Assembly (NCBI GenBank): GCA_947383695.1
Contig: OX376642.1
Coordinates: forward strand, 806,001 to 870,000
Reading direction: 5' to 3'
DNA: 64,000 nucleotides
Source of the DNA: Actinomycetes bacterium
GTDB taxonomy: Bacteria; Actinomycetota; Actinomycetes; Nanopelagicales; Nanopelagicaceae
Position 1 is the stretch's first letter; the number at the start of each line of letters is the position of its first letter. The translations under genes were made by a program, and so were the position numbers. This document shows, in pieces, positions 3,956-64,000 of the stretch. The notes beneath the pieces were generated by a model that was not told the DNA's origin, ran no database searches, and was given only the letters and a program-made list of their open reading frames with translations.

Positions 3956-3976
3956 TTCTCACCTTTACTTTATAAG

Positions 3977-4012: not shown

Positions 4013-4046
4013 GTACTTATTTAAAGCGATACCAATTTCTTGGTAA

Positions 4047-5319: not shown

Positions 5320-5330
5320 GTATCTGGGAA

Positions 5331-5906: not shown

Positions 5907-5955
5907 TGTCGAACCATCCCCTCAGAATTCCATTCCCCAAAATTATTGACTTGTG

Positions 5956-6028: not shown

Positions 6029-6044
6029 TTTCTGTGGGGCAATC

Positions 6045-7484: not shown

Positions 7485-7493
7485 GTCTCTACC

Positions 7494-11900: not shown

Positions 11901-13458
11901 GGATCGCATCAAGTGGTGGATTAGTAACCTGGGCAAATAGTTGTGAGAAGTAATCAAAGATCAAACGTGGCTTATCAGAAAGGGCGGCGATAGGAGTATC
12001 TGTTCCCATTGAACCAAGTGGTTCCATGCCGTTCTTTGCCATCGGTGTTACCAAAATGCGTAGATCTTCTTCGGTGTAACCAAATGCGCGTTGACGACGA
12101 ACAACAGATGAGTGCGGATACACAATGTGTTCGCGTGCAGGAAGTTCGCTTAACTTGATGATGCCTGCATGTAACCAATCTCCATATGGAGCAGCATTTG
12201 CTAAACCATCTTTAATTTCGCCATCTTCAATAATGCGTCCTTGTTCAATATCAACTAAGAACATCTTGCCGGGCTGTAAACGACCCTTACGCTCTACATT
12301 TTCAGCTGGGATATCTAGAACTCCAACTTCGGAAGCTAGTACAACCATTCCATCCTTTGTAACCCAGTAACGAGATGGACGTAAACCATTGCGATCAAGT
12401 ACTGCGCCTACTTGGTGACCATCTGTGAAAGTTACACAAGCAGGACCATCCCAAGGCTCCATCATCGATGCGTGGAAGGCGTAAAAATCACGACGGTTCT
12501 GCGGCATCGTTGCATGGTTCTCCCACGCTTCAGGAATCATCATCAGAACTGCGTGCGGAAGTGAACGTCCACCTAAGTACAAAAGCTCCAGAACTTCATC
12601 AAATGAAGCAGAGTCAGAGCCTGACATTTCAACAATTGGGAATAAGCGCTTGAGATCTCCAGGAATTACATCGCTTTGCAACAAGGATTCGCGAGCGCGC
12701 ATCCAATTACGATTTCCCTTAACGGTGTTGATTTCGCCGTTGTGTGCAATAAATCGGTATGGGTGAGCAAGTGGCCATGAAGGAAAGGTATTTGTAGAAA
12801 AACGTGAGTGAACCAGCGCAAGTGGTGAAACAACTCGCTCATCTGAAAGCTCTGGGAAAAACTCTTCAAGCTGACCTGTTGTAAGCATTCCCTTATACAC
12901 AATTGTCTGAGATGACAAGGAAGGGAAGTACAGATCTAATCCATGCTCAGCACGCTTGCGCAGACAAAATGCCAAACGATCTAATGCAATTCCAGTCTCG
13001 CCCTTTTTACCTGCAATAAATAGTTGGTGGAAATCTGGCATAACCGACAAGGCGGTCTTTCCAAGAGATGATGGGTTAATCGGGACTTCGCGCCACCCTA
13101 GGACAACTAGCCCTTCTTCATCAGCTAACTTTTCGATCTCGCCCTTAACATCTGCACCCTTGGCGATAAATGCAATACCTGTTGCATACGCATCTGCAGC
13201 TGGAAGTTTAAAATCAACTACTGCTTGAAAGTATGCATCTGGAATACGAATAAGGATTCCTGCGCCATCACCGCTATCTGGTTCAGCACCTGATGCACCG
13301 CGGTGCTCCATATTGCGTAAAGCTGTTAGTGCTTGGGAAACAATGTGATGAGTTGCAACCTTGTTGAGTGTGGCAACCATTGCAACGCCGCAGGCATCAT
13401 GTTCAGCGGCAGGGTCGTAGAGTCCCTGTGCTTGTGGATAATTGGATGCAAGTGCCAT
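8941..13458 (-). CDS. gltB: Glutamate synthase (NADPH) large subunit
   Basis: A 1505-residue glutamate synthase, making two glutamates from glutamine and 2-oxoglutarate. The N-terminal class II amidotransferase domain has its nucleophile at Cys23 (HDACGV) after a short propeptide. The central and FMN-binding synthase domains follow, with the [3Fe-4S] ligands in [15 protein letters not shown] and the [11 protein letters not shown] loop. The C-terminal beta-helix GXGXG domain completes the normal length. TAGGAG eight bases before the ATG supports the start. A 22-bp inverted repeat lies 20-41 bases upstream, a reasonable place for nitrogen control. The product works with GltD, encoded in the overlapping next gene. 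Confidence 0.96.
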
Positions 13459-13477
13459 GGGCGCGCTCCTACGGAAT

Positions 13478-13499
13478 TGTCCTTACATGTAAAGGGACA
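13478..13499 (-). promoter_or_regulatory. Inverted repeat upstream of gltB
   Basis: The perfect 10-bp palindrome TTACATGTAA (13483-13492) is flanked by TGTCC on the left and GGACA (13495-13499) on the right, with a two-base imperfection on one side. It lies 20-41 bases upstream of the gltB ATG, between the VIT1-like gene and the ribosome site. Seen: the symmetry. Inferred: an operator for a nitrogen or glutamate regulator. It does not obviously match the GlnR or AmtR consensus I know, so the regulator is unassigned. Confidence 0.45.
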
Positions 13500-13554
13500 T
13501 CCTTGGCCCGTGATGCTCACTACTTGTTGCGTAGGGCGAAATCGTAGCAATAAG

Positions 13555-13572
13555 AGGGCTACTTAGAGCCCT
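13555..13572 (-). terminator. Weak hairpin at the end of the VIT1-like gene
   Basis: AGGGCT (13555-13560) and AGCCCT (13567-13572) form a 6-bp stem with a 6-base loop that spans the stop codon of the VIT1-like gene. On the minus strand it is followed by CTTATTGC, only a poor U tract. It could contribute to termination ahead of gltB. The stem is short and chance is not excluded. Confidence 0.3.
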
Positions 13573-14270
13573 GAGATGTTGGCAATCTTTCCAATTCCTG
13601 CGGTGATCGCCATACCTATGGAGCCACCGATCAGCACACGCAGTGTTGGTGAGAGCAGCTTTGAGCCTGCGGTTCGGGCTGAGACCACGCCGGTGATTAC
13701 CAATCCCCCGAGGGTAAAGGCGACGATGCTCCACGCCTTAGTGCCAAGGGTTGGAGCAAAGGCGCCTGCAAATGGAATCAATCCACCCAAGGTAAATGAG
13801 ATTGCCGATGCAACCGCCGCCTGAACTGGACGTGCCTTTGTATTGGGATGTTGACCAAGCTCATCACGTAGATGGGCTTCAAGTGGATCTTTGCGATGCA
13901 TTTCAAGGGCAACCTGCAAGGCAAGTGCTGGAGTTAAGCCACGATCGATGTAAATCTGCTGAAGTTCTTGAAGCTCCGCCTCTGGATCTGCTGCAAGGTG
14001 GGCGATTTCAATTAAGCGATCTGATTCTTCAATATCATTTTGAGAACGAACCGAGATGTACTCACCAACCGCCATCGACATCGCACCTGCGGTTATTCCA
14101 GCAACGCCAGCAGTAATCAGAAAATCCTGTTTTCCAGCCGCTGCTACACCGATCATTAACGCTGCCGTTGAAACGAGGCCATCATTTGCACCAAGCACTG
14201 CGGCACGAAGCCAACCAGCACGATGGGTGCGATGTTCTAGATTTCTTTGGTAGACCTCTTCCAAACTCAT
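13563..14270 (-). CDS. VIT1/CCC1 family transporter-like membrane protein
   Basis: A 235-residue VIT1/CCC1 family protein. It opens with HRAGWLRAAVLGANDGLVSTAALMIGVA, the signature first transmembrane helix, followed by a second helix with GAMSMAVGEYISVRSQND. A soluble acidic and helical middle (about 85-135: AADPEAELQELQQIY) normally binds metal, and three further hydrophobic segments end the protein. Family members move Fe2+ or Mn2+ across membranes; direction and metal here are unknown. No ribosome site is seen; TAGGCT seven bases before the ATG may be a -10 box of a leaderless transcript. Its stop is about 100 bases ahead of gltB. Confidence 0.85.
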   Translation of the reverse strand: MSLEEVYQRNLEHRTHRAGWLRAAVLGANDGLVSTAALMIGVAAAGKQDFLITAGVAGITAGAMSMAVGEYISVRSQNDIEESDRLIEIAHLAADPEAELQELQQIYIDRGLTPALALQVALEMHRKDPLEAHLRDELGQHPNTKARPVQAAVASAISFTLGGLIPFAGAFAPTLGTKAWSIVAFTLGGLVITGVVSARTAGSKLLSPTLRVLIGGSIGMAITAGIGKIANISGL

Positions 14271-50007: not shown

Positions 50008-50404
50008 TCTTCACCGGAACCTCAATAACCGGCTTGTCTAGCGACAAGAAAGTTGGATTTTCAGAAGGCTTCATGCCTAATGCTGTTGCAGATTTTGCAA
50101 GAGCATCTGGGGAGGAGATCTTGTCGATCTGACGTGCAATTGCTTCTCGTTCATCACTTACTAACTTCGCCTCAAGTTTGAGGCTTGTCAGTTCAAATGC
50201 ATCTTGTGCGAGCAAGGTATTGATCAGGAGAAGGAGCATGAGACCAATACCGCCAACAACAGATACAAAGATTGCGAAGAACTTACGATCTGCTTGCTTT
50301 CCGTCGGATAGATCAGGCACAAGCTTGAGTGCAACTTGTGAAGTCTTCTCGGCGAAAATTTCTTTTGAGCGAGTAATCGCTGGAGCTAGTGCAGTCATAG
50401 CCAT
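50000..50404 (-). CDS. ftsL: FtsL-like septum formation initiator
   Basis: A 134-residue bitopic protein. A basic cytoplasmic part (1-40) is followed by a membrane helix at about 41-66 and an extracytoplasmic coiled coil (LTSLKLEAKLVSDEREAIARQIDKI). A short tail contains ALGMKPSENPTFLSLDKP. Sequence conservation in FtsL is low, so the call rests on topology plus position between rsmH and ftsI. It would join FtsQ and an FtsB-type partner to activate FtsWI. Its start overlaps the rsmH stop by one base. Confidence 0.85.
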   Translation of the reverse strand: MAMTALAPAITRSKEIFAEKTSQVALKLVPDLSDGKQADRKFFAIFVSVVGGIGLMLLLLINTLLAQDAFELTSLKLEAKLVSDEREAIARQIDKISSPDALAKSATALGMKPSENPTFLSLDKPVIEVPVKNG

Positions 50405-51357
50405 TACGCGGCCACCCTTTCGATAGCGCGAAGACGCACTGATTGAGAACGTGAGTTCTCTTCAAGCTCGGCATCGGTTGGTGTCTCGCTTCCGCGAGTG
50501 ATCATTGAAAACTTGGCGGCAAATTCAGGTAGATCAATTGGAAGATCGCGTGGTGTTCCAGATGTTGTGGATGCAACAAAGAGTTGCTTAACGATGCGAT
50601 CTTCTAGAGATTGGAATGACATGACTACTAATCGAGCGCCAACATTGAGAAGTTCAAGTGCTGCAGGAAGTGCGCGTGTAATAGTGCCTAGCTCGTCATT
50701 GGTTTCGATGCGAAGTGCCTGGAAGGTGCGCTTTGCAGGGTTTCCACCAGTACGACGAGTTGCTGCTGGAATCGCCTCTTTTACAAGGCTTGCAAGCTGA
50801 GCTGTCGAATTCATAGGAGCGATTGCGCGCTGCTTAACAATTGATTCGACGATGCGTGTAGCAAACTTCTCTTCACCATAGGTGCGAAGAATTCGTACTA
50901 ATTGGCCTGGCTCGTATGTATTGATGATCTCCCCCGCTGTTAGCGATTGGGTACGATCCATGCGCATATCTAGCGGTGCATCTTGTGAGTATGAAAAACC
51001 ACGCTCTACTTGATCCAGCTGCATGGATGAAACACCGAGGTCAAACAAGGCCCCATCAATGTTCTTGTAACCAAAGCTGGCAACCACATCTGCGATGCCA
51101 TCAAAGGTTGAGTGTGCAGTCTTTAGACGATCTGCAAATGGTGCAAGGCGCTCTGTGGCCTTTGCAATCGCATCAAGGTCGCGATCGATTCCGATAACAG
51201 TTAAGTGTGGGAACTTTTGAAGTAAAGCTTCTGTGTGGCCACCTAGGCCCAATGTTGCATCAACAACAACAGGATTACTTGACGCTGCAATTGCTGGAGA
51301 CAAGAGATCGACACAGCGATCACGCATTACAGATATGTGCTCTGTTGTACTTGTCAT
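50404..51357 (-). CDS. rsmH: 16S rRNA (cytosine-1402-N4) methyltransferase RsmH
   Basis: About 317 residues. A Rossmann SAM-binding core (VVDATLGLGGHTEALL, then VIGIDRDLDAIAKATERL) has an inserted helical domain and the RsmH elements GALFDLGVSSMQLDQVERGFSYSQDAPLDMRMD and NEIGT-like TNDELG. It methylates C1402 in the 16S decoding centre. The start is uncertain: the ATG at 51357 gives the normal length but its GGGGG lies very close. The in-frame ATG at 51429 lies within the arm of the RNA hairpin described here. Historic name mraW. Confidence 0.92.
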   Translation of the reverse strand: MTSTTEHISVMRDRCVDLLSPAIAASSNPVVVDATLGLGGHTEALLQKFPHLTVIGIDRDLDAIAKATERLAPFADRLKTAHSTFDGIADVVASFGYKNIDGALFDLGVSSMQLDQVERGFSYSQDAPLDMRMDRTQSLTAGEIINTYEPGQLVRILRTYGEEKFATRIVESIVKQRAIAPMNSTAQLASLVKEAIPAATRRTGGNPAKRTFQALRIETNDELGTITRALPAALELLNVGARLVVMSFQSLEDRIVKQLFVASTTSGTPRDLPIDLPEFAAKFSMITRGSETPTDAELEENSRSQSVRLRAIERVAA

Positions 51358-51421
51358 CTCTCCCCCTTTACTTCTAGTAGTTGATGTACCGCTTACTTCT
51401 GGTCTTACTTCTTTCCTAGCG

Positions 51422-51527
51422 ACTCTCATCTCTGGTCACTGCCGGCCGACGGATCTTTGTGTTGCAACGGCGCCGGGGAAGGGGCGTCGCTACGTTCGAA
51501 GGGTCGGCAGTGGCCACAAATGAGAGT
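51422..51527 (-). promoter_or_regulatory. Long structured RNA element between mraZ and rsmH (mraW-motif-like)
   Basis: The whole mraZ-rsmH gap folds on itself. ACTCTCA (51422-51428) pairs with TGAGAGT (51521-51527). After a 4x4 internal loop, fifteen positions from 51433-51447 pair with 51502-51516 (two G-U pairs), and GACG can pair with CGTC further in. The outer arm starts on the mraZ stop codon. An Rfam mraW RNA motif is known upstream of mraW/rsmH in actinobacteria; position and size fit, but I could not test the consensus. Likely a cis-regulator of the downstream cell-wall genes. Confidence 0.7.
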
Positions 51528-51958
51528 TAGAACAAACCTGGAAAGACCTCCTCTGAAACATCAGCGAAGCTCTTTTCACGATCTGCTAAATATTCATTCC
51601 AAGAAGTTGCGTCCCAAATTTCAACGCGAGTATTTGCACCAATAACAACGCACTCTTTTTCTAAACCTGCATATGTGCGAAGTGATTGTGGAATTGTTAC
51701 GCGACCTTGACGATCAGGAATTTCATCGTGTGCGCCAGCAAACATCACACGGCTGTAATCACGTGCTGATTTTGCAGTGACTGGCGCTTGTTTTAGCGTT
51801 TCAGTAATAACTGAAAACTCTTGTGATGGAAAAACATAAAGACAACGTTCTTGTCCTTTTGTAATTACTAAACCTGCAGCAAGTTCTTCGCGGAATTTCG
51901 CGGGAAGGATTAAGCGACCTTTGTCATCAAGACGTGGCTCGTGGGTGCCTAGAAACAT
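51527..51958 (-). CDS. mraZ: Transcriptional regulator MraZ
   Basis: A 143-residue AbrB-like protein with two MraZ domains. The first starts [22 protein letters not shown], and the second contains [23 protein letters not shown]; each shows the DxxGR core. MraZ forms rings and binds repeats in its own promoter to control the dcw cluster. I set the start at the ATG at 51958, the canonical family start, with GGGGG eight bases upstream. The frame stays open 44 codons further, but that part is the G-rich operator array read as protein. Confidence 0.96.
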
Positions 51959-52010
51959 TTTCAGCGCCCCCTTCCCCAGGTTCGCTGCGGACTTTCGTGC
52001 CCGCTTAATT

Positions 52011-52088
52011 CCCCACTTTACTCCACTTTTCCCCTTTTTCAACCACCTTTTCCCACTTTTTCCCCTTTTCGCCCCCACCTCTCCCCAC
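52011..52088 (-). promoter_or_regulatory. 10-bp-periodic MraZ operator array upstream of mraZ
   Basis: On the minus strand, GTGG-type cores preceded by A/G tracts recur in register: TGGGG, TGGAG, AGGGG, TGGTT and TGGGA at 10-base steps over 52011-52056. They continue at 10-11-base steps to 52088, giving eight blocks. Known MraZ boxes are TGGGN units separated by five bases (E. coli, three copies) or AAAGTG repeats (mycoplasmas); both patterns are visible. The array ends 53 bases before the mraZ ATG. Autoregulation by MraZ is therefore well supported; the copy number is unusually high. Confidence 0.8.
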
Positions 52089-52144
52089 ATTCAGGGCAGG
52101 CCAAAGGGACCTGAAACAGGCGGGAATCGGCGTATTTGGGCATG

Positions 52145-52170
52145 AAAAAGCCCCTCTCTAGGAGGGGCTT
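52145..52170 (-). terminator. Rho-independent terminator of the giant surface-protein gene
   Basis: AAGCCCCTC (52148-52156) and GAGGGGCTT (52162-52170) form a perfect 9-bp stem with a 5-base loop. In the minus-strand direction the stem ends in GGGGCTT followed by TTT, a short U run. It starts 32 bases after the stop codon of the giant gene and insulates it from the mraZ operator immediately downstream. This is the clearest intrinsic terminator in the window. Confidence 0.85.
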
Positions 52171-52201
52171 CGGCCGTTTATGGGCCCTAATTCATGTCGA
52201 G

Positions 52202-55200
52202 TTACTTCTTGTTGAAGGAGTCCACTCGATAGCTGACAGCAACCCACTTGGCCCCCTTGGCCGCCAGTGGTGCTTTCGTCGATGGGTAAAGAGCAATAGC
52301 GGTGATGACAGAAGGCTTGGCCTTCTTGATCATTGAGCAGATCGCCTTTGCCTGTGTAGTAGCAAGCGCTTTGGCCTTGGCAACTGTCGTGTTCTTTGTG
52401 TAGTAGTAACCAATACAAGTCACCGGCGCCTTAGGTTTTAGAGTCGAGATGTATTTCTTTAAGTAGGCATTGTCGTAGGCACTCAGTGTTAACTTTGATG
52501 AGATTGAGTACAGGGTTATCTTCGGAACGATCTTCTTTGCAGCAAGTGCCGCGGCTGCTTTTGCATCATCCAAAGCTTTCTTTTCGGCAGCTGCTTTCAG
52601 CTCGGCGTCAGCCTTTTCTTGTGCAGCCTTCAACTCTGCGGCAATGCGTGCATCTTCGGCAGCCTTGTCTTGTGCAGCTTTTAACTCGGCAGCAGCTCGT
52701 GCTTCTGCATCTGCAATCTCTTGTGCAGCCTTTAGTGCGGCTGCTGCGGCCGCCTCTGCTGCTGCTTTATCTGCTGCAGCTTTTAGCTCGGCAGCGGCTT
52801 TTGCATCGGCGGCAGCTTTCTCAGCAGCTGCTTTTGCTTCTGTTGCAGGTGTAGAAACATCTGAAACAGGAAGTGAAGGAACAGGGGCACCACCACTTGA
52901 TCCACCACTTGATCCACCGCTTGATCCACCGCTTGATCCACCGCTTGATCCACCACCAGTATTTCCTGATGATGGAGCACCAAGCGTGAGTGGCGACGAT
53001 GGAGTGCTTACTGCACTGTTTCCAATCAAATTGCTAGCAGTGACTGTAAATGTGTAAGGAGTTCCAGTAACTAATCCGTCGATCACACATGTTGTTGCTG
53101 ATAATGACTCGCAACTCTTTCCGGCTCCGGCAGTTGCAACATACTTAGTAATTGCAGTTCCACCATTGTTTGCTGGTGCGGTCCACGAAATCGTCGCTGA
53201 AGTGGTATCAATTGGTGTTGCAGTAACGCCGGTTGGGGCATCTGGTGCAACCATGGCAACTACAACAACAGGGTCCTTACTTATTGATACCTGAACTTGA
53301 CCATCGACAAGGGCAATACCCAATAGCTCTGGCTGATTGCCCACTAATCCATAGACCTTTGATCCAGCGGTAATGCTGGAATTTCTAACGGTCATAAGGA
53401 TTGGTTTTCCTGCAACCGTATCCGGCACAGTTCCATCGGGTGCAACCCAAGCAAGAATCAGGGAGAGAATCGGTGTTGCTGGGGTTTGCAGAAGTGAGGT
53501 AACGCGAGTTGTTGAGTTTTCTAGATATGCAGTGATGACCGTGCCGTCAGGCAATGCGCCAGCTGTATAACTAACAGTTGCTGTGCTTCCATTGCTACCC
53601 GCGGTAAATCCTGTATCAATACCATCTCGCACAGTTATTTGTGCAATCAGTGTCGCAGGTCCCATTCCGCTTAGAGATCCTTGAACCCAACGCGCATAGG
53701 CCGTGATTGAACCACTAGGTAAAAAGTTCGCACCTGCGTCACCTAATAAATAGCCGCCTGATGCTTGGGAGTACCAGCCGTTAAATACATAGTTTGTTCT
53801 ACTTGCAGAAGGCAAAACAATTGGGGTTTGCGAATTATAGTTAATCGAATCTGTGGCTCTTCCAGCTGTTCCACTGTTACCGTTATATGTAACGGTGAAC
53901 ACCGCTGGAACCCACTGTGCATAAAGAATTGCATCAGCAGTAGGCGTGTAAGGGCCGCTTAATGAAATTAACGTTCCGCCAGTTTCCGTAGTCGACCAAC
54001 CTTGCAATGTGTAATTAGCTCTTGTTGCATTAGGCAGAGATACAGATTGACCAATCGTCACAGTTGCTGTCGAAGTATCACTAATGCCGCTACCTGCATT
54101 GAATGTTAGGCGATATACCGAAGTGACCCATACTGCGTGAAGCAATATGTTTCCACTTGGCGCAAATGAAGAAGCAACTGGAGCCGTTGCAGTACTTGTC
54201 GTTGCCCAACCCTTGAAATCGTATTCTGAGCGAGTAGGACCTGATGCTGGCAAGCTCGCAGGACCAGAACCAAATGTGTAATTCTGGGCTGCAATCGGTG
54301 TTCCGCTTCCACCATTGAAGTTATAGGAAATTTGATAAACCTGTGGAGTCCAAATTGCTTGCAGTACAACGTTGTCGGTTGCAACCTGGTAATCAGCCCC
54401 CGGGTTGTAATTGTTTGTTCCATCTCTCCAGTGCTCAAAGTCGTAGCCGATCTTTGTTGGTGCAGCTGCAACTGTAAAGATCTGGCCAATTGTTCGGTTC
54501 ACTTGGGTTGGAACCGTTGAATTTCCACCATTTACATCGTAAGTAATGGTGTAGGACTTAGGCGTCCACTGGGCATAGAGCAAGTAGTGGCTATCGCGCA
54601 CTACATAGTTAGCTCCTGCTGATGCTTCTTCCCCACTTTGATCTTTCCATGTGACAAAGTCGTATCCCGCACGTGTAGGAACAGTAGAGCTGACAACAAT
54701 CGTGTCGCCAGCAATCTTTTGTTGATCTGCAATAGTAGTTGCGACAGAACCGCCGTTAAAGGAGTACTTGACGTTATAAATACGAGTCCACTGCGCAGTT
54801 AAAGTTATTGCGCCCGCCCCCATAAGAATGCTCTGACCTGGGGCATACGTTCTTGTTCCATCACTCCATGAAACGAATGCATATGGATTTGTTCCATCAC
54901 TTCCGGTTAACCGGGTCGCTGCTGCAACAGTAAAGCTTGTTCCGTAATTTACATTTGCTTGCGTAGGAACAGTTCCACTTCCATTTGTACCGGCAACGTA
55001 TGTGACCGCGAAGTTTGCAACTGTCCACTGAGCATAAAGTTCAACATTGGATGTAGTTGTAAATGGATCTGCAACTGGTGTTGAAACTGCAGCTAGGCCC
55101 CAGCCTGCAAAGTTATAACCGGTCTTTTCCAAAGTACCTCTAGTGGCCAATGGAACCGCAGTACCTGCTGTTGTGTAATTATCTTCGGCTTTACTTGGTG

Positions 55201-58200
55201 AACCCGTTCCACCATTTGCATCAAAGGTAACTTTGTAAGTATTGGGTGACCAACGAGCCCAGAAAGCAATGTTGTTTGTACCAACGGTGTATGTATTTCC
55301 AGATACATACTGATTGACCGTATCGGTTGAACTTAGTCCCCAGCCGATAAAGCTATATCCAGTCCGAACCAAAGTTCCTGTGTTTCCCAAAATCGGTACA
55401 GAGCCACTCATTGTGTAGGTGTTGGAATCAAGGGGCACTGAACCACCAGTTGCTCCATTTGCATTATAAGTAACGGTGTACTGCGTCAAACTCCACTTTG
55501 CATACAAAGTGACATCGACTAAGCCAAGTGCAAGAGAAGCGCCTGGTTGATAAATCTGACCGGTTTCATCTGAATTCAAACTCCAACCAGCAAGATTATA
55601 ACCATTAAGGGTTAAGCCACCTGATGCCGGGTTAGCTAAAACAACCGCTGATGCATTTGAGGCATATGAGTTTGCATCTGTTGGTGCTGCCCCACCTGTT
55701 GAACGAGTACCGTTATAGAAAACCTTTAACAGCGCAAGAGTTGTAACCGTCGTCTTAGAAGAACCGGGGGCGTATCCGACTCGGGTGGTGCTAACAGTGA
55801 GTTCAACTGCAGTTGATGGGTTAACACCTGAAACTGTAATTCCACCTTGTGTGTTAATAACTGCCGTACCAACGGTTGAAGAAACGTTCCATTGATATGC
55901 AGAGTCGTAGTTAGTTACGGAAGCGGTAAATCCACCAGTAAGAGTCACAATACTGCCGACAACTGGAACCTTTGCAGCGTTGAGAGCACTTCCAGATGCA
56001 AGGCCTGTGCCACTTGAAAAGCCTGTCTTTTGATTACCAATTGAAAATGTTGCAACCGAACCAGGTGTCATTCCTGTGACTGTTATAGGCAAGTTCGAAC
56101 CTGTTGCAGTGCCTACCGAAATATTTCCTGAGCCAACTGTAAATTGGGGCACGCCGTATGTGTAAGTAGCATCGTAATTAGTTACATTGACTGTGAAGCC
56201 ATCTGCAGTCGATGTAGATGGACCAAATGTTGGGTTTGTTTGTGCACCAAGTGGTGTTCCTGATGCATTTGCAGAATAGGCGCTATTTCCAAAGAGATTC
56301 TTTGCTCTAATCTGGAATACATATGCTGTTCCATTACTTAGATTCGGCACTATTGCTGAAGTGGCGGTGGCAGCAGCTTGGATCAGCTCTGACCAGGTCG
56401 AACCGCCATTAGATGAATACCTAATCTCAAAGCCATCGGTAGGTGCCTCATTTAGTGATGCACCCTTGCTCCAGTTCAACACAATCTGACCAGATCCACC
56501 AGCTGCGGCAGTTAGGCCGGTAGGGGCGTTAGGAACAACTTCGGCGCACCAGATTGTTTTGCTGGTAAAGCGCGAGTTAATGTAATTGGATAAGACGGTG
56601 CCGGTTGAACCGCAATATTGAACGCTAGTGATCGATGGATCAAATGCAGTTGTAGCAATAGTGAGGTTGCTGGGATGTGTGGTTGCAGTGCCAAATCTAA
56701 TTGTCTTTATACCGGTGCCTTCAAAAGCTTGAGCATCAAATTGGGAAACTGTTGGTGGGAAAAGTGGTGCCCAACTACCGGCTGCAACATTGTAAAACGC
56801 TTTGCGCCCGATACTAGTTATTCCAGTTCCCCAATCAACACTTGAGAAAACTGTTCCTGTGCCAAAGTTCTCACCAATCTGAATTTTTCCACTGCCCAAG
56901 GTCAACGCGATACCTGGGCTAATCGGATTACCCTTAAACGCTGAATCCAGTAAAGCGGTTGGGTGATTAGCAGGTCCTGTTCCTGTGACAAAAACGGTGG
57001 TTATGTAGTTATTCATAAAGGAATAGATGCCAACTGTTTCAACAGTACCTGGAATCGAAACTGATGTGAGGCCAAGATTTTTAAATGCACCTTGGTCAAT
57101 TGTTCGTAGTCCAGTTGATGGAAAAGTTACTTTCGTAATATTTCGGTTGGTCGTTTCGGTGTTAACTGTAAATGCATTGCTATTTATCTGCACGATTCCT
57201 TGTGGGATCGTAACTTCGCCCTGGCAATTCACGCCGGCCGCAGAAGGAATTTGGACAACTGAAAGTGTTGAGTTTACGTAGAAACTTCCGCTCGAAGAAC
57301 ACTCGACAAAATAGAAAGATCTGACTGAAGCACTAGTTGCCCAGTTATAGTTCAAATCTCCAGAACTGTTAGTCGCTCTGACTCGATAAACGTAGGCAGT
57401 TCCATTAAGCAGACTCGTTACAGATAATTGTGTTGTGCTGTCATTCGTTGTTCCAATGTTGACCCAAGTGGTTGAATCTGTAGAGGCCTCAATTACGTAA
57501 CCGGTGAGAGCAGAGCCACCATTGCCGGTTGGCGCGCTCCAGGATAAGTTCGCTCCCCCAGCCTGAGCGGTTGCGCTTAAACTCAATGGCACAGTGGGAT
57601 TCGTGGCAAACACTGAGTTAACGCGTGAAAAGTTAACTGTTCCATCTGCTGCAGTGACCTGGACTATAAAGAAATCACCATTAGAAACTGTGCCAGTTGA
57701 GCCATTGGTAAAGGCCGCTGCTGCATTGAAGTTTGTTAAGTTCTCAGTTGTTCCAGATGCAAGCTTTGCAATTTTAGTAATCGTTGCGCCAGCATCTGTG
57801 ATGGTAAAGGTAGTTGCTGCATTACCAGTTGCCTGTGAAACCGACAAAGTGACAGAGCCTGCTGTTAACGACCCCAGAGAAGCGCCCGCGGTTCCAACTG
57901 TTCCGGTCAGACCCTTGATTGTTGCGCCCGATAAGGTTGCAACATTTGAGTTAACCGTAACGTTGATGCGATAGAACCTTACTGTCGCATCTGCGGCTGT
58001 GACCTTAACAATGAAGAAATCACCGCTTGTAACTGTGCCTGCCCCGCCATTGGTGAAAGCTGTATCGCTCTCAAAACCTGTTGTTACTGCGCCAGTTGAA
58101 TATTTAACGATTCTAGAAATTACGGCATTGTTATCTGTCCTAGTAAAGGTAGTTATGTCAGTGCCTGTAGCTTGTGCTGTCGTTAGGGTGATGGTGCCAG

Positions 58201-61200
58201 CCGTTACTGATGCCAGAACTGCGTTCGGAGTTCCTAGGTTTGGAGTTTGGCCCTTGATCGTTGCGCCAGAGAGTGATGCGACATCTGAGTTAACGGTTAC
58301 GTTAAATCGCGAATAATTCACTGTTCCATCTGCAGCGGTGATCTTGACGATGAAGAAATCACCGTTTATGACGGTGCCCGTCGAGCCATTAGTTAAGCCT
58401 GTCGCTGCATCAAAGTTTGTTATGTTCTCAGTTGTTCCAGATGCAAGCTTTGCAATTTTAGTAATTGTTGCGCCAGTATCTGTCTTGGTAAAGGAAGTAG
58501 CTGCAGTTCCTATTGCTTGTGCTGTGGTCAGGGTGATGGTGCTAGCTACAAGAGATCCCAGAGCAGTGCCCGCTGTTCCAACCGTTGCGCCTACGCCCTT
58601 AATGGATGCGGCAGAAAGTGTTGCAACATTTGAAAGTCGAGTCAGAGTAATTGTGTAGGTAACTACAGTTGTTTCATCGTGAGCTGTGACTTTAACCAAG
58701 ATGGTATTAGCGCCAACAACTAATGGGAGGTCCGCCGATACTGATCCCGATACGACTGTTGCAAAATCTCCAGAACCAATCTTGACTTGAACAGTGGCAT
58801 TAGCTTGGTTGACTGTTGGAGTCACCGTAACTTTGTCAACGGAGTTAACAACTGAAGATGTATAGGTATTAGTTGTAGGTGAAAAACCGCCCACCAGAGT
58901 TGCTTGCGTAAGTATCAAGGCAGAAAGTTTTGCATCATTGGACTTTGTGTACGTGAACTTGCTCGCAGAACTTGCAACTGATGATCCAGATGCGTTAACC
59001 ACAAAAATATCTATTTCACCTAAGTTGTTGGTTGCTGGAGAGATCACTCTGATCTGTGTCGAACTATTAACAGTGACACTTTGAGCTGCAATTGAGCCAA
59101 ATAAGACTCCACCCGTAGTCAGAAGATTGTTTAACCCAGTTCCATTGATGATGACATCTTGTCCACCTGTAAGCATTCCTGAAGAAGGCGAAATCGAGGT
59201 AATGGTTGGTACGGAAACATAGGTGAACTTGCCGTAAAGCGCGACCGCAGATGTTCCACCTGGATTTATCACAGTCACATTAACTTCGCCCGTTCCAGCA
59301 GGGGCGACCACAGTTATTTGAGTAGCGCTCACAACTGTTACTGATGTTCCATCCGTAGTTCCAAATTTCACACCTGTAGCACTAGTAAAATTCTCACCGG
59401 TAATCGTGACCGAAGTTCCACCTGCCGTTGTGCCAGTTGAGGGCGAAATGCTTGTCACCACTGGAATTGGGAAATAATTGAAGTTATCAGCAACAACATT
59501 TTCAGATGTTCCACCTTGGTTTGAAACTCGCACATCAACTGCACCAGTACCAGCTGGAGAAGTTGCCGTAATTTGTGTCGTGCTATCGATCGTAAAGGTG
59601 CTCACATTGTTTGAACCGAAAGCAACAGTTGAGGCCGATGTGAAATTAGTACCGGTAATGATTACTGAAGATCCACCACCGTTAGGGCCAGTAGATCTTG
59701 AGAGGCCTGTAATAGTTGGCGGTGCAAAGTAAGTAAATTGACTAGAAATGGCAGATGTGTTTGAGCCTGTAGTGACTCTTACGTTTACAGCTCCAGTTCC
59801 AGCTGGTGAAGTAGCCGTTAACTTACCGGTCGTACTGTTATACGAAACGTTGGTGGCTGCATTTGAACCAAATGCAACGGTAGACGCTGACGTGAAGTTG
59901 GTACCGGAAATTTCCACCACCGTTCCCCCAGCAGTTGGGCCAAATAAAGGAGAAATTCCCGAAACTGCAACAGTAGCGGTGTACACAAAGTCGTCAGCGG
60001 AAACATTCGTGGATGTTGAACCACCTGTTGTGACAGTTACATTGACTGTTCCAGCGACTCCGGCCGGTGATGTCGCTGTCAGCTTGCCAGTGCTGCTGTT
60101 ATAGGCAACGTTAGTGGCTGCATTTGAACCAAATGCGACGGTAGACGAGGATGAGAAATTCGTTCCAGAAATTTCAACTACGGTGCCACCGCTGGTCGAG
60201 CCAGTGCTAGGGCTAATTGCGGTAATCGAAGTCGCCGACGTGTACAAAAAGTTGTCAGCTGTAACATTTTCAGATGTTCCGCCTGGGGTTGTAACCCGCA
60301 CATCGACTGTCCCAGAGCCGGCTGGATAACTTGCCGTAATTTGAGTTGAGCTGTTTACGGTAAAAGATGTTGCGTTATTTGACCCAAATGTCACCGCTGA
60401 CACATTTGTGAAACCAGTTCCAGTTATAACCACACCATTTCCACCGGTCGGTGAACCACCTGAAGGGCTCAAGCCAGTGACAGTAGGCGCTGCCACATAA
60501 CTGTACTTCGAGCCCGACGATATCGCTGATGTTCCACCTGCAGTTTGAACCGTAACATCAAGGGTCCCCAATATGCCCGGGGGTACTTTTGCAGTGATCT
60601 GTGTTCCGAAAGTGTTAATCGCATAATCGGTCAGAGGGATTGAAGTCGTACCAAACTTTAAGCCGTTGGTAACTAAATCTATAAAGTTGGTTCCAGAAAT
60701 CACAACAGTGTTTAGACCGGCAATTGGTCCACTATTTGCAACAACTGAAGTAATTGATGGAGGTGCTACTGGGTATTGATTTGAACATACAGCAGTTGAT
60801 GCTCCAGTACTCGCAGTAACAGTCTGTGGCGCAACTGACGCTGAGTTACATGTCTGATCGCTTGGCTGAAATAAAGCTAGGGTATTGGCTCCAAATGCGT
60901 AGGTTGTAACTGGAGAAAAACCTGTCAGCGGGTATGCGGCAACACCTGATAAAACTTGAGTAGGCCCGATCAGGGTCTCACCATTGAATGGTCCAATACG
61001 AACACCAATACTTTTTCCTTGCGTAGCCGGATCACCCTGCGATTTGTCACCAGTTCCAAACTGTGCTACCAAAACACCATTTATAAAGACGGCGTCGTAT
61101 CCCTCTGAAGGACTGCCAGGAACAACTTTTCGTTGATAAACAACATTTTGCCACGCGTTGTTAGCGGCAAAAGGGGTAGCCGGGACGGTGAGACCAATAA

Positions 61201-62995
61201 CTGAACCACCTAAAAAGCCATAAATTCTGGAGTCAGTATTGGTAATTGAAATTCCGTTTCCGCGGTCAGAATAGAAGCCATCCCCGTAAAACGCACCTAT
61301 ATCTATATTTAGGATTGGGTTGTTTACCTTTACCCAAGTTTCAACAGTAAATGATTGAGAAGTAACTAATCCGGTGCCTTGAGGAAAATTCAATCTCAGT
61401 GTGTTATTCGTAGCAAGACGATTTTGAGTCTCTCCCGGGTAAGTGGTGAATCCAGTTGAAGTGAGCCTTAGGCTTCCGCGGATATTAGTAAGTGAGGGTG
61501 CGGATGTTGAAGTAGCTAACTCGGTATTAGTTGGCGTCAATGTTGCGTTCATCGTGAAATAACTAGAGGTTGGGACCCAAGGACAACTTGCCGTAAATGG
61601 ACTGACGGTCGTTGTTGCAACAGATGAGCAACCTGGAATAACTCCCTGGTCTGTTTGAAATGAGACATTTCCTGGTGTGGATGCGGTCGCGGTAAGTGTG
61701 TTAGTTACGCCGACCTGCACTGCACTGTTGGCCAAGGCAAGGGAGACCGAGGTGACTAGTTTGTTTACAGTAATGGAAATGTTTGCCGTAGTTTGCAAAC
61801 CCGAACTGTTTTGCGTACCAGCAACAACATACGTTGTGGTGGGGGAAGATAAGGCCGGAGTTCCCGAAATTTCGCCAGTTGTTGTATTTAGATTCAATCC
61901 ACTTGGGAGTGCAGGGCTAACCGAGAAACTGTTGATGTCACCGCCCGTTGAAACTATGTTAGTTGTGGGTAGCGGCGAACCGGCAAAAATTGTGCGCGAC
62001 GCGGGTGAATAACTAAACGCCGGTGGTGGCGGTGAAGCAAAGTCTGATGAGGCTGCAATACTGCCCCCTGTAACACGAGTGGACAGGACAGCTCCGTTAC
62101 CCGTTAAATCAACTGCGTTTGAAGTAGTGGTATTGGTTTGCGGTTTTATCAATGCTAGAACGGTTCCACCGGATACAGTTGTCGAAAAATCATATGACGG
62201 TGCAAATGCTGAGGTTCCATCGGTCGGATATAGAGCGACATTTGACAAACGCATTTGCCCGTAAAAGGCCTTACCCGAAGCGTTAGTACCAAAGGGGCCA
62301 AGTTTGAAAATTCGTAATGGGTTCGAAGGTGCATTGATAGACGTAGCAGACTGGGCAACTTTGCCCCCAACAAAAGCTGTTAGGCGCGCATTGCCGCCAA
62401 TTATTGATTTCTGAAGTGCTATGTGTGTCCATCCACCAGTTGGAAACTCCACCCTAGGGCATGCGGCTACGGTTGCTGAAGCATCGCAATAACGAAGCAC
62501 GCCGTTTGCATTTGTCCGCATGTAGTGCGAACCGCCGACGCCCTCCACGCGATATAGCCGTTGATTCCAGCCCTCATAGGCGGTTGCTCCACCGCCACTT
62601 TCAGGGATTGAGGCACCCGCAGCTACTTCAGCGCAACCTTGAGTCGACCCATTACCACCGGTGGCACTGTAACTGCTGTTTGTTGCGGCATCAGTTTTCA
62701 CCCACGCCTCAAAGGTGTATGCGACATTTCCGGACAAAGCCAGCTCACTAGGGATATCCAATGTCAAATAATTATTACCCGTTCCACATTGACCGCCATA
62801 GTTGCTGCCTGAAGTGATGGAAATACTTCCAGGGTTAGAGTTGTTAGCCGATGCTGTTGGCAAATTTTGTGGCGCAGTTATTCCAACAACCGGCAAAATG
62901 AGTGATCCCAATAGCGCGGCAACTACAACTCGCGCCACGTTTACGCGCAAAGTCCGCTGTATCTGCTTGATATCTAAAGAAAACAAGTTACGCAC
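52202..62995 (-). CDS. Giant secreted multidomain repeat protein (putative adhesin or S-layer-like protein)
   Basis: A 3597-residue exported protein. A signal sequence (helix 21-40, cleavage likely after TASA at 50) is followed by a LamG-like domain (about 57-320), an Ig/He_PIG-like unit (326-410) and a second LamG-like domain (510-735). Seven IPT/TIG repeats (742-1348), a cadherin-like sandwich (1350-1452) and three copies of an unassigned repeat of about 115 residues (1455-1798) come next. Then Fn3, an LRR_5/BspA-like stretch (1898-2150), Fn3, Ig-like units, nine InlB-type repeats (about 2421-3104) and a third Fn3. A Gly-Ser linker, an Ala/Lys-rich helix and a C-terminal domain resembling OmpA-like folds end it. 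No LPXTG motif. Starts with GTG after AAGGGG. Domain borders are estimates. Confidence 0.88.
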   Translation of the reverse strand: MRNLFSLDIKQIQRTLRVNVARVVVAALLGSLILPVVGITAPQNLPTASANNSNPGSISITSGSNYGGQCGTGNNYLTLDIPSELALSGNVAYTFEAWVKTDAATNSSYSATGGNGSTQGCAEVAAGASIPESGGGATAYEGWNQRLYRVEGVGGSHYMRTNANGVLRYCDASATVAACPRVEFPTGGWTHIALQKSIIGGNARLTAFVGGKVAQSATSINAPSNPLRIFKLGPFGTNASGKAFYGQMRLSNVALYPTDGTSAFAPSYDFSTTVSGGTVLALIKPQTNTTTSNAVDLTGNGAVLSTRVTGGSIAASSDFASPPPPAFSYSPASRTIFAGSPLPTTNIVSTGGDINSFSVSPALPSGLNLNTTTGEISGTPALSSPTTTYVVAGTQNSSGLQTTANISITVNKLVTSVSLALANSAVQVGVTNTLTATASTPGNVSFQTDQGVIPGCSSVATTTVSPFTASCPWVPTSSYFTMNATLTPTNTELATSTSAPSLTNIRGSLRLTSTGFTTYPGETQNRLATNNTLRLNFPQGTGLVTSQSFTVETWVKVNNPILNIDIGAFYGDGFYSDRGNGISITNTDSRIYGFLGGSVIGLTVPATPFAANNAWQNVVYQRKVVPGSPSEGYDAVFINGVLVAQFGTGDKSQGDPATQGKSIGVRIGPFNGETLIGPTQVLSGVAAYPLTGFSPVTTYAFGANTLALFQPSDQTCNSASVAPQTVTASTGASTAVCSNQYPVAPPSITSVVANSGPIAGLNTVVISGTNFIDLVTNGLKFGTTSIPLTDYAINTFGTQITAKVPPGILGTLDVTVQTAGGTSAISSGSKYSYVAAPTVTGLSPSGGSPTGGNGVVITGTGFTNVSAVTFGSNNATSFTVNSSTQITASYPAGSGTVDVRVTTPGGTSENVTADNFLYTSATSITAISPSTGSTSGGTVVEISGTNFSSSSTVAFGSNAATNVAYNSSTGKLTATSPAGVAGTVNVTVTTGGSTSTNVSADDFVYTATVAVSGISPLFGPTAGGTVVEISGTNFTSASTVAFGSNAATNVSYNSTTGKLTATSPAGTGAVNVRVTTGSNTSAISSQFTYFAPPTITGLSRSTGPNGGGSSVIITGTNFTSASTVAFGSNNVSTFTIDSTTQITATSPAGTGAVDVRVSNQGGTSENVVADNFNYFPIPVVTSISPSTGTTAGGTSVTITGENFTSATGVKFGTTDGTSVTVVSATQITVVAPAGTGEVNVTVINPGGTSAVALYGKFTYVSVPTITSISPSSGMLTGGQDVIINGTGLNNLLTTGGVLFGSIAAQSVTVNSSTQIRVISPATNNLGEIDIFVVNASGSSVASSASKFTYTKSNDAKLSALILTQATLVGGFSPTTNTYTSSVVNSVDKVTVTPTVNQANATVQVKIGSGDFATVVSGSVSADLPLVVGANTILVKVTAHDETTVVTYTITLTRLSNVATLSAASIKGVGATVGTAGTALGSLVASTITLTTAQAIGTAATSFTKTDTGATITKIAKLASGTTENITNFDAATGLTNGSTGTVINGDFFIVKITAADGTVNYSRFNVTVNSDVASLSGATIKGQTPNLGTPNAVLASVTAGTITLTTAQATGTDITTFTRTDNNAVISRIVKYSTGAVTTGFESDTAFTNGGAGTVTSGDFFIVKVTAADATVRFYRINVTVNSNVATLSGATIKGLTGTVGTAGASLGSLTAGSVTLSVSQATGNAATTFTITDAGATITKIAKLASGTTENLTNFNAAAAFTNGSTGTVSNGDFFIVQVTAADGTVNFSRVNSVFATNPTVPLSLSATAQAGGANLSWSAPTGNGGSALTGYVIEASTDSTTWVNIGTTNDSTTQLSVTSLLNGTAYVYRVRATNSSGDLNYNWATSASVRSFYFVECSSSGSFYVNSTLSVVQIPSAAGVNCQGEVTIPQGIVQINSNAFTVNTETTNRNITKVTFPSTGLRTIDQGAFKNLGLTSVSIPGTVETVGIYSFMNNYITTVFVTGTGPANHPTALLDSAFKGNPISPGIALTLGSGKIQIGENFGTGTVFSSVDWGTGITSIGRKAFYNVAAGSWAPLFPPTVSQFDAQAFEGTGIKTIRFGTATTHPSNLTIATTAFDPSITSVQYCGSTGTVLSNYINSRFTSKTIWCAEVVPNAPTGLTAAAGGSGQIVLNWSKGASLNEAPTDGFEIRYSSNGGSTWSELIQAAATATSAIVPNLSNGTAYVFQIRAKNLFGNSAYSANASGTPLGAQTNPTFGPSTSTADGFTVNVTNYDATYTYGVPQFTVGSGNISVGTATGSNLPITVTGMTPGSVATFSIGNQKTGFSSGTGLASGSALNAAKVPVVGSIVTLTGGFTASVTNYDSAYQWNVSSTVGTAVINTQGGITVSGVNPSTAVELTVSTTRVGYAPGSSKTTVTTLALLKVFYNGTRSTGGAAPTDANSYASNASAVVLANPASGGLTLNGYNLAGWSLNSDETGQIYQPGASLALGLVDVTLYAKWSLTQYTVTYNANGATGGSVPLDSNTYTMSGSVPILGNTGTLVRTGYSFIGWGLSSTDTVNQYVSGNTYTVGTNNIAFWARWSPNTYKVTFDANGGTGSPSKAEDNYTTAGTAVPLATRGTLEKTGYNFAGWGLAAVSTPVADPFTTTSNVELYAQWTVANFAVTYVAGTNGSGTVPTQANVNYGTSFTVAAATRLTGSDGTNPYAFVSWSDGTRTYAPGQSILMGAGAITLTAQWTRIYNVKYSFNGGSVATTIADQQKIAGDTIVVSSTVPTRAGYDFVTWKDQSGEEASAGANYVVRDSHYLLYAQWTPKSYTITYDVNGGNSTVPTQVNRTIGQIFTVAAAPTKIGYDFEHWRDGTNNYNPGADYQVATDNVVLQAIWTPQVYQISYNFNGGSGTPIAAQNYTFGSGPASLPASGPTRSEYDFKGWATTSTATAPVASSFAPSGNILLHAVWVTSVYRLTFNAGSGISDTSTATVTIGQSVSLPNATRANYTLQGWSTTETGGTLISLSGPYTPTADAILYAQWVPAVFTVTYNGNSGTAGRATDSINYNSQTPIVLPSASRTNYVFNGWYSQASGGYLLGDAGANFLPSGSITAYARWVQGSLSGMGPATLIAQITVRDGIDTGFTAGSNGSTATVSYTAGALPDGTVITAYLENSTTRVTSLLQTPATPILSLILAWVAPDGTVPDTVAGKPILMTVRNSSITAGSKVYGLVGNQPELLGIALVDGQVQVSISKDPVVVVAMVAPDAPTGVTATPIDTTSATISWTAPANNGGTAITKYVATAGAGKSCESLSATTCVIDGLVTGTPYTFTVTASNLIGNSAVSTPSSPLTLGAPSSGNTGGGSSGGSSGGSSGGSSGGSSGGAPVPSLPVSDVSTPATEAKAAAEKAAADAKAAAELKAAADKAAAEAAAAAALKAAQEIADAEARAAAELKAAQDKAAEDARIAAELKAAQEKADAELKAAAEKKALDDAKAAAALAAKKIVPKITLYSISSKLTLSAYDNAYLKKYISTLKPKAPVTCIGYYYTKNTTVAKAKALATTQAKAICSMIKKAKPSVITAIALYPSTKAPLAAKGAKWVAVSYRVDSFNKK
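52896..52955. repeat. Five 12-bp tandem repeats coding a Gly-Ser linker
   Basis: The unit CTTGATCCACCG occurs five times head to tail; the first and last copies end in A instead of G. Read on the minus strand it encodes GGSS units linking the third Fn3 domain to the Ala-rich helix of the giant protein. Nearly identical copies suggest recent expansion by slippage, so the linker length may vary among strains. Confidence 0.85.
53685..55733 (-). repeat. Nine InlB-type (Listeria-Bacteroides) repeats within the giant gene
   Basis: Nine units of about 72-82 residues share the plan YTVTYNxNGGxG, a variable middle, TRxGYxFxGW, then LYAQWTP. This is the InlB B-repeat or Flg_new family, often found in surface proteins that hold an extended, sticky beta structure. 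Copies are diverged from each other, so the array is old rather than newly duplicated. Borders are approximate. Confidence 0.85.
58952..60772 (-). repeat. Seven IPT/TIG repeats within the giant gene
   Basis: Seven Ig-like units of about 82-90 residues, each with the plan ITSISPSTGxTxGGTxVxITGTNFT, VxFGSN, TQITATSPAGTGxVDVRV and FTY at the end. Units three to five are very similar to one another, including the shared run STVAFGSNAATNV, pointing to internal duplication or conversion. TIG domains usually act as extended stalks or binding modules on cell surfaces. Confidence 0.85.
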
Positions 62996-63113
62996 GAGAC
63001 CCCTTGTGTTAAAGAATGGATTATGTATTCAATCTTGAGAAAGTATGCCATAAATGAGAGGTAGCACCAGTCTTAGAATCTGCTTTCAAGTGTCGGGCTC
63101 TACCCCAATGGTG

Positions 63114-63138
63114 TGGGTCGGTTCTACACTTAGACCCA
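63114..63138 (+). promoter_or_regulatory. Putative TetR operator overlapping its own promoter
   Basis: TGGGTC (63114-63119) and GACCCA (63133-63138) form 6-base arms separated by 13 bases, ending on the A of the TetR-family ATG. The centre contains TACACT (63125-63130), a good -10 box seven bases before the ATG, so the gene is probably leaderless. An inverted repeat over the -10 fits negative autoregulation. Whether the same regulator controls the divergent giant gene 142 bases away is open. Confidence 0.45.
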
Positions 63139-63788
63139 TGGCATCCAAAAAGCAGGCGGCTCAAGCCCCTGGTGGTAGACAAGCTGCCTATAGCGCCAGA
63201 AATCGCGCTGCCTTAATCAAGGTCGCCCAAGAGGTTTTAGCTGAAGTAGGGCCGAGTGCCACTATCGAACAATTATCAGCCCACGCCCAGGTCTCCCCGA
63301 CAACTATCTATAAATACTTTGCCAATAAAGAGGTGCTTTTCTCCGAGGCGTTCAGCCAGATGTGGGAGGAATGGATCCATTGGTCCAACGAAACAAGATC
63401 TCCAGGTGAACCTCTTGAGACAGTGTTAGACGCTGGGCGCAAACTCTTTCGGATCAAGCAGCATGATCCGATCCTTGCCGAAGTTCTGCACAATGTTGTG
63501 AGGGATCCGCAATTTGCAATGAATGCGGTCCAAGGGGAAGCAGATCGAGTATTTAAAACCTTGGCCAAAATGGGGGCCGTCAAGAGTGAAGACCTAGAGG
63601 AGAGATTGATTATCTGGAAGCACATCTACACGGGTATCTGTATTTCTCTCTATGGCACGAAGGAAATCTCCCCTGAGGAAGCTGATCTAGCTTTCGGAAT
63701 TGGACTGTCGGTCTGGGGTATTAGTGAGGCAAAAGCGAAGAAGATTATTTCGCGGCCACTTACATTTCCGCTTCATGCAATAAAGTAA
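63138..63788 (+). CDS. TetR/AcrR family transcriptional regulator
   Basis: A 216-residue regulator. After a basic tail (ASKKQAAQAPGGRQ) comes an N-terminal TetR DNA-binding domain at about 21-70 with the helix-turn-helix ATIEQLSAHAQVSPTTIYKYFANKEVLF. The ligand-binding domain (about 80-205) is not assignable to a known effector. I used the ATG at 63138, which follows a -10 box and an inverted repeat; the frame is open 28 codons further upstream with no support. It is divergent from the giant surface-protein gene across a 142-bp gap, which makes that gene a candidate target besides itself. Confidence 0.88.
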   Translation: MASKKQAAQAPGGRQAAYSARNRAALIKVAQEVLAEVGPSATIEQLSAHAQVSPTTIYKYFANKEVLFSEAFSQMWEEWIHWSNETRSPGEPLETVLDAGRKLFRIKQHDPILAEVLHNVVRDPQFAMNAVQGEADRVFKTLAKMGAVKSEDLEERLIIWKHIYTGICISLYGTKEISPEEADLAFGIGLSVWGISEAKAKKIISRPLTFPLHAIK

Positions 63789-63808
63789 AAACGACTTTCA
63801 GAAACTCT

Positions 63809-64000
63809 TTACTCCCCGTTGGAGCGGTCTTCCCAACGCTTTTCCATGCGAGCGCTCAAGTTGCCACGCGCACGAGGGGCCTTCTTTGGGCCACGTACCT
63901 GAGGAGAGATGCTGGAGATTGCGCTGATTACTCCGGTCAGGGCGATGATGAAGCCCAGGATTCCGATCGGGGTAATTTGAGCGATGAGGCCGCCAAACAA
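63809..64000 (-). CDS. Small membrane protein, partial at the window edge (possibly DUF3040)
   Basis: The last 63 or so codons of a minus-strand gene that probably continues past the right edge; no ATG or ribosome site is visible at the edge. It has a hydrophobic segment (LIAQITPIGILGFIIALTGVISAI), a basic Arg/Lys/Pro linker and the ending LSARMEKRWEDRSNGE. Helix plus Arg-rich ...RxExRW.. ending resembles the C-terminus of actinobacterial DUF3040 proteins, which often lie near mraZ. That family call is tentative. It converges on the TetR gene with a 20-bp gap and no clear terminator. Confidence 0.55.
   Translation of the reverse strand: MFGGLIAQITPIGILGFIIALTGVISAISSISPQVRGPKKAPRARGNLSARMEKRWEDRSNGE

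Follow-up and report, generated by a model that had tools for sequence, protein, structure and literature searches.

What does a bacterium with a minimal genome do with a single gene of 10.8 kb, and how did it come by it? The general view of free-living plankton with minimal genomes is that they attach to nothing and have little regulation. We analysed a window of 64,000 nucleotides (positions 806,001 to 870,000 of contig OX376642.1) from a genome of the Nanopelagicaceae, which is assembled as one contig of 1,431,431 bases and is 99.86% complete. The giant gene lies on the reverse strand at window positions 52202-62995 as an uninterrupted open frame of 3597 residues with a GTG start and AAGGGG upstream, exactly the coordinates and length that a sequence-only reading of this DNA had given for a single gene. 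That reading proposed a mosaic protein standing as a stalk at the cell surface, possibly an adhesin. The explanation that we favour, to which we give somewhat better than an even chance, is a TetR-regulated, cassette-borne fibrillar adhesin in which the recognition tip is swapped and the stalk and anchor are conserved.

The N terminus resembles a signal sequence (aa 1-51, positions 62843-62995; all features of the giant gene are on the reverse strand). By hydropathy, a basic start is followed by residues 15-43, the sole segment of the protein above 1.6, and then by an ASA-NN site, which we take to be a signal cleavage pattern; the signal sequence proposed earlier is thus matched by one N-terminal hydrophobic segment. 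The protein has 16 cysteines, an even number in every domain. Even numbers of cysteines per domain together with strong hydrophobicity at the N terminus only are as expected of an exported protein. The composition is rich in Thr, Ser, Gly and Ala.

The domain anatomy was established by computation. A Pfam scan of the whole protein passed Flg_new in eight stretches (seven singly over the cut-off), TIG seven times, fn3 three times, LRR_5 twice and Cadherin-like once, as the sequence-only reading had named them, and did not list LamG. Two LamG domains had also been claimed, and these stand only weakly: the first passes Laminin_G_3 by only 0.4 bits when the N-terminal piece is scanned alone (28.0 bits against a cut-off of 27.6), and the second, at 20.0 bits, falls under the cut-off. 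The tip domain LamG1 (aa 52-325, Pfam match aa 73-230; positions 62021-62842) is followed by a He_PIG Ig-like domain (aa 344-411; 61763-61966; 36.8 bits) and by the second LamG-like region, LamG2 (aa 506-745, match aa 538-662; 60761-61480), which is 52% identical in a relative, L038. Seven TIG domains (aa 746-1349; 58949-60760), the cadherin-like domain (aa 1365-1453; 58637-58903; 50.2 bits), three repeats of ~113 aa recognised by eye with no Pfam match over cut-off (aa 1456-1795; 57611-58630) and the first Fn3 (aa 1796-1880; 57356-57610; boundaries by eye) come next. The conserved stalk begins with the LRR_5 region (aa 1881-2155; 56531-57355) and continues through a further Fn3, two Ig-like domains assigned by eye and the InlB/Flg_new repeats (aa 2156-3104; 53684-56530) to a ZU5-like "bridge" domain (aa 3105-3250; 53246-53683) and the last Fn3 (aa 3251-3335; 52991-53245). 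The bridge was named by fold comparison with ankyrin ZU5 4d8o (Foldseek E 0.09, probability 0.97; VIA Z 9.7, rmsd 3.0, 125 aligned). A Gly/Ser linker and an Ala/Lys-rich helix with tandem repeats (aa 3336-3488; 52532-52990), the helix already noticed in the sequence-only reading, may span the wall, and the protein ends in a tail with two invariant cysteines (aa 3489-3597; 52205-52531), predicted from alignment, model and fold searches to have an OmpA fold. The He_PIG domain, the three ~113-aa repeats, the ZU5-like domain and the OmpA-fold tail had not been named before, nor had the TetR partner, the operator and the insertion boundaries described below.

Length alone could raise the doubt that so long a frame is an assembly artefact joining separate genes, a possibility that the sequence-only reading had itself named. 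The giant protein aligns with seven relatives from separate assemblies at 48-60% identity over 1177-1550 residues, and the 3809-aa protein L038 of G071, a genome of another genus, shows the same main order. Between L038 and L041, dN/dS in the conserved stalk is 0.12 (dS 0.47; comparisons with the window are saturated), and by this measure the stalk is under purifying selection. The independently assembled relatives, the order in G071 and the dN/dS value together contradict the artefact, and we give it practically no chance.

We compared 15 giants, of which L041-L044 are cut by contig ends and L034, L035 and L048 have no such tail or an ordinary OmpA tail. L038 matches LamG1, He_PIG, LamG2, the seven TIG domains, LRR_5, the second Fn3, the two Ig-like domains, the InlB repeats, the bridge, the last Fn3 and the tail at identities in the range of 39-73%; it has no match to the cadherin-like domain or to the three repeats, and the first Fn3 matches only another Fn3 of L038. 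LamG in L038 and in G065 rests on 41-45% identity to LamG1 of the window, Pfam having listed none there. Since L038 has the main layout, the "unique domain order" claimed earlier was overstated, although the full set of domains occurs in none of the 15 giants. L038, L041-L044 and L046 have in common, at 48-60% identity, the stretch that runs from LRR_5 through the last Fn3; in L044 it starts inside LRR_5. In L039 the shared part starts at the second Fn3. Bridge and tail are present in all 12 tail-bearing relatives compared, and the heads vary. Among the 15 giants, L046 also has a match to the cadherin-like domain and L039 a weak one; the three ~113-aa repeats were matched in none. The host genome itself has two further Flg_new frames, with frame lengths of 3464 and 1205 aa. 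Its second giant (L034, G000:C1:1388000-1404000, 3664-14022, reverse strand) has 3452 aa with 14 Flg_new and six fn3 matches, glycine-rich domains and no Pfam match to OmpA; the gene after it encodes 556 aa that match nothing in Pfam and finish with a hydrophobic segment.

The giant gene belongs to an 11.7-kb cassette (52089-63809, delimited by alignment to G225) that comprises a terminator, the giant gene, an operator and a TetR gene and lies between mraZ and its usual DUF3040-like neighbour. We named the flanking genes from sequence and take them to be mraZ, a DUF3040-like gene and dinB; genus relatives have the small DUF3040-like gene and dinB upstream of mraZ. The nearest relative, G225 (L080), aligns to window coordinates 50031-52088 and 63810-65168 with 61 bases between. 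Both flanks are kept without the cassette in 10 of 11 aligned relatives, the contig of the eleventh (L082) ending too early. mraZ was detected in 55 of the 61 genus genomes, and among the 30 mraZ loci compared the giant matches only its own. As these alignments show computationally, the giant and TetR genes are an accessory insertion. The terminator-like hairpin 3' of the giant gene (52151-52164, reverse strand) was the one found, against 0.5 in shuffles (sd 1.0). No integrase or transposase frame was seen by eye in the cassette. Transport by phage was considered and rejected: scans of viral contigs with the tail, the TetR protein and the bridge gave no relative.

Across the family, the 120-aa tail was found in 12 of 201 genomes at 15 places, one of which is a weak match to an ordinary OmpA tail, and the bridge in 22 of 296 genomes (E 1e-8). 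A survey of the class found the bridge in 15 of 394 genomes at E 0.001, with values below 1e-8 only in the family and in G547 of another family. The same kind of cassette is present in relatives at other chromosomal places. The earlier argument that so long a gene in a minimal region must earn its cost is weakened by this accessory, patchy distribution. In G547 the bridge-like domain lies within a 3675-aa frame (L134/L166) that apparently ends in a membrane helix and a basic tail, without the OmpA-fold tail.

The tail is where the protein might be held. Thirteen tails align over 120 aa, with the two cysteines invariant. An AlphaFold2 model from two sequences, of modest confidence (pLDDT 63), has the order b-a-b-a-b-b, which is that of OmpA. 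In Foldseek the SiiA peptidoglycan-binding domain ranked first, A. baumannii OmpA came next, and Pal and OprF were among the high-ranking matches; VIA gave Z 11.1 against the OmpA-c-like 9uu2 (rmsd 2.9, 104 aligned). Membership of OmpA by sequence failed: the Pfam OmpA model (PF00691) does not match the window tail and matches one of the 13 tails, at E 0.012; a search of PDB sequences returned zero matches; and hhalign of the tail against two OmpA tails gave 1.4%, with shallow alignments. We therefore retain OmpA as a fold only, and by the model the tail is an OmpA-fold domain. It resembles the OmpA/Pal/MotB peptidoglycan-binding domains in predicted fold and C-terminal position and differs from them in its two invariant cysteines, in being missed by the Pfam model and in the GHTD and NRRVE motifs, which are replaced in all 13 aligned tails. 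The Asp of GHTD and the Arg of NRR are presumably the residues with which OmpA binds DAP. Because these motifs are replaced, binding of the tail to peptidoglycan is no more than plausible.

No LPXTG-type sortase motif is present near the C terminus of the giant protein, the only similar motif being LPTTN at residue 342, and sortase (PF04203) has no match in the host genome, with 3 of 14 control genomes positive. Three relatives (L038, L042 and L188) carry an extra stretch of ~120 aa beyond the OmpA-fold tail that ends alike in all three. About 10 kb from the giant gene, a paralogous pair (L035, G000:C1:876000-886000, 3673-8004) consists of a 1180-aa paralogue that ends in an ordinary OmpA domain and its own divergent TetR gene, whose product is 33% identical to the TetR of the window.

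Divergent from the giant gene is a TetR-family regulator gene (63138-63788, forward strand; the start was chosen by likeness to relatives), whose TetR_N DNA-binding domain scores 42 bits against a cut-off of 24. A search of 201 family genomes found 15 genomes with at least 48% identity, then a second group at ~30%, then general TetR proteins. The neighbourhood could be counted at 13 of the 15 loci, G138 and G188 being cut at contig ends. At 11 of these 13 the TetR gene has a divergent gene of exported type, as judged by eye: in eight a long frame that in some runs off the contig (G000, G071, G065, G155, G165, G198, G125 and G132), and in three (G157, G084 and G078) a gene of 391-541 aa whose product has a hydrophobic stretch at the N terminus and in G157 carries RCC1 repeats. 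The remaining two (G167 and G145) have the operator, but no giant or other exported-type gene adjoins TetR. None of eight general-TetR loci has an exported-type neighbour, a weak control because several of these loci represent a single gene in different species. The genes of 391-541 aa that occupy the giant's position next to this TetR and operator (L112 4805-8270, L110 6157-7332 and L111 947-2122) start like MSDYY.DDPIEEAP, and the one in L112 has RCC1 repeats.

Tail-bearing giants at L036, L037, L039, L040 and L047, as well as L192, where the tail is cut by a contig end, have a divergent LuxR-type response regulator and histidine kinase instead of TetR; the pair was confirmed by Pfam in L036 only. 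At L191, a TetR gene that by eye is like the second group lies beside a tail-bearing giant. A CTANANT-like element stands ~10 bases before the TetR start in the window (63110-63137) and in relatives, as if the message were leaderless, and a simple scan of 62800-63300 found no consensus sigma-70 promoter.

Between the two genes lies a palindrome, TTGGAA-N5-TTCCA, repeated at 19 bp (63008-63053, forward strand), which we propose from its conservation as the TetR operator. A palindrome of this kind is conserved upstream of all 15 TetR genes. The 46-base alignment reads approximately CGAAGATTGGAA-N5-TTCCATACTTGGAA-N5-TTCCA, with two palindromes 19 bp apart. With 13 of the 15 sequences compared (a duplicate and one more left out), the best 18-mer averages 3.75 mismatches to the closest match that each of the 12 other sequences offers; 10 base shuffles, which do not keep relatedness, gave 6.5-6.9. 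The sites precede homologous genes, and descent and selection are not separated as the source of their likeness. In a leave-one-out model, 63008 scored 28.1 bits, the highest among 127,910 window positions, with 7.6 for the next-best place elsewhere, and no second place in the host genome came within 3 mismatches of a 23-base part of the site. At the 13 other loci the operator ranked first in 10 and second in three. At two of the latter the top-ranked match is this same site, offset by one repeat, and at the third, L112, the top site stands 44 bases in front of another gene of this kind, which is likely a further target.

In the 201 genomes, a model built on sequence only, with strict filters that can miss weak sites, found sites in 15 of 15 TetR genomes, which are the training loci (G065 being the twin of one), and in 2 of 186 others. 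The site in G043 precedes a TetR gene of the second group that lay outside the training set; the weak matches in G114 and G188:C89 lie inside reading frames, look like chance and were discarded. G212, likewise outside training, gave the top locus score of 39.2 bits at 13271-13316, beside a TetR gene that by eye is of the same group and a 3126-aa giant. This site stands 64 bases in front of TetR and overlaps the opening 25 bases of the giant's longest possible frame; the giant may in fact start further in. Chance matches inside frames reach 14.0 bits (L125) and 12.6 bits (L128). For the second-group TetR genes the same operator was rejected at L035, L122, L124, L126, L127 and L191, all below 9 bits; L129 scores 23.9 at the right place, and L123 scores 13.5 at the right place, under the 14.0 chance level. 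At the response regulator/kinase loci, L037, L039 and L047 score at most 4.9, L036 reaches 10.1 between the two genes, and the values for L040 (11.5) and L192 (9.7) come from inside frames.

Inheritance of the cassette as one unit is not supported by the distances of its parts. TetR and stalk distances are uncorrelated, with 227 of 720 permutations reaching the observed value among six genomes, a test that assumed three TetR-giant pairings across contigs (G125, G198 and G132). Because the divergence of the regulator does not follow that of the stalk, the parts appear to have been reshuffled rather than inherited as one.

The tip difference comes from one genome pair, G071 and G065, both drafts and of different species. 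In 150-base and 250-base steps their cassettes are 97-100% identical in nucleotides through TetR, the signal sequence, aa ~390-~1290 (LamG2 and TIG) and the remainder of the giant from aa ~2132 on; aa ~1290-~2132 are uncovered in G065, where the gene is split over two contigs. The computed alignment shows a sole break inside the compared cassette, at aa ~60-340, which is the LamG1 tip, at 55-68% nucleotide and 51% amino acid identity, a single step at its border having 89%. In the DNA around the cassette, identity is 63% in a step beyond the TetR end and 65 and 71% in steps of a gene that we take to be mutM; murA, elsewhere, is 90.7% identical, so the two genomes are nearer than mutM suggests. 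Even set against the 90.7% of murA, a cassette at 99% points to recent exchange. Between the window and L038, LamG1 is the second most diverged shared segment (45%), after LRR_5 (39%). We tentatively extend the favoured explanation, at a lower confidence than the adhesin itself, to a mobile adhesin platform of streamlined planktonic actinobacteria, in which a dedicated TetR family with its own 19-bp-repeat operator and a constant OmpA-fold anchor and stalk would go with plug-in lectin tips swapped between species.

A tip might also vary as the target of phages or grazers rather than to alter what the cell adheres to, the giant being a variable shield or receptor that TetR switches off under attack. 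The tip difference and the patchy presence (the bridge in 22 of 296 family genomes) fit such arms-race models, and according to PMC10202952 phages have been assumed to prey extensively on the order of this bacterium. Two LamG-type domains on a long stalk look like a ligand-binding device, however, and the viral contigs that yielded no relative of the tail, TetR or bridge say nothing about receptors; we consider this account unlikely, at perhaps a quarter of our belief. Size, repeats and a composition rich in Thr, Ser, Gly and Ala would suit a structural protein of an S-layer-like layer or extracellular matrix, with LamG gluing neighbours of the same strain. Against it stand the accessory presence in the family, the place beside a repressor-type gene and, in the one close pair, a difference at the tip only; we rate this as improbable, well below the phage or grazer account.

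Under the favoured adhesin explanation, the TetR protein would bind the operator between both genes and repress the giant until some ligand releases it. The giant protein would then be exported through Sec, and its OmpA-fold tail and Ala/Lys helix would anchor it in the wall independently of sortase. The conserved stalk of LRR_5, Fn3, InlB repeats and the ZU5-like domain, with an upper stalk that is variable and consists here of TIG and cadherin-like domains, would carry the LamG lectin-type domains outward by a distance that we infer to be on the order of 100 nm. The outermost LamG would be the recognition part, replaced by recombination while the rest is kept. The surface stalk or adhesin of the sequence-only reading fits what was found, namely a signal-type N terminus, even numbers of cysteines, a lectin-type tip, a tail that has the OmpA fold by model, and a difference confined to the tip; adhesion itself is probable at the strength given above.

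The protein has traits of fibrillar adhesins, with an N-terminal export signal by hydropathy, Laminin_G_3 near the tip and a stalk of repeated domains. CshA-like fibrillar adhesins, as described in PMC10952558, likewise have a signal sequence, a ligand-binding domain at an N-terminal tip, a repeat stalk and domain shuffling, and also a C-terminal anchor, which in the giant is predicted by fold. For the set of 690 adhesins treated there, sortase motifs are reported as universal among Gram-positive species, and anchors of the OmpA-like type are reported chiefly from Proteobacteria. The giant differs from that set in its LamG tip, its dedicated TetR and proposed operator, and its predicted OmpA-fold tail in an actinobacterial genome where no sortase was detected. 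Giant1-5 of Apilactobacillus kunkeei are also very large surface proteins, in a 1.5-Mb genome with recombination and cross-genus sequence exchange, but Giant1-4 have beta-solenoid N termini and the five genes are consecutive; the abstract of PMC12863079 mentions neither a regulator pair nor tip-limited exchange for them. Four further papers served as background only (PMC9426551, PMC11039613, PMC12381374 and PMC7616799).

TetR repressors of the IcaR type are divergent from surface or biofilm genes, with their site between. Here too there are a TetR-family gene, a divergent gene and a proposed site between them, and the target differs in being a giant adhesin-like gene. In searches of open-licence literature, by titles and opening lines of abstracts, none of the papers listed reported the cassette or its combination of parts; the individual parts are already known and their combination appears to be new. 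The locus offers testable material in one operator and in natural tip alleles on an almost identical stalk. The predicted OmpA-fold anchor may be an answer to how sortase-less actinobacteria could hold giant proteins. If the explanation is true, a repeatedly acquired, privately regulated adhesin with swappable tips would show in what such cells invest their adaptive variation, and what a cell can hold, and when, would move as a cassette through otherwise minimal genomes.
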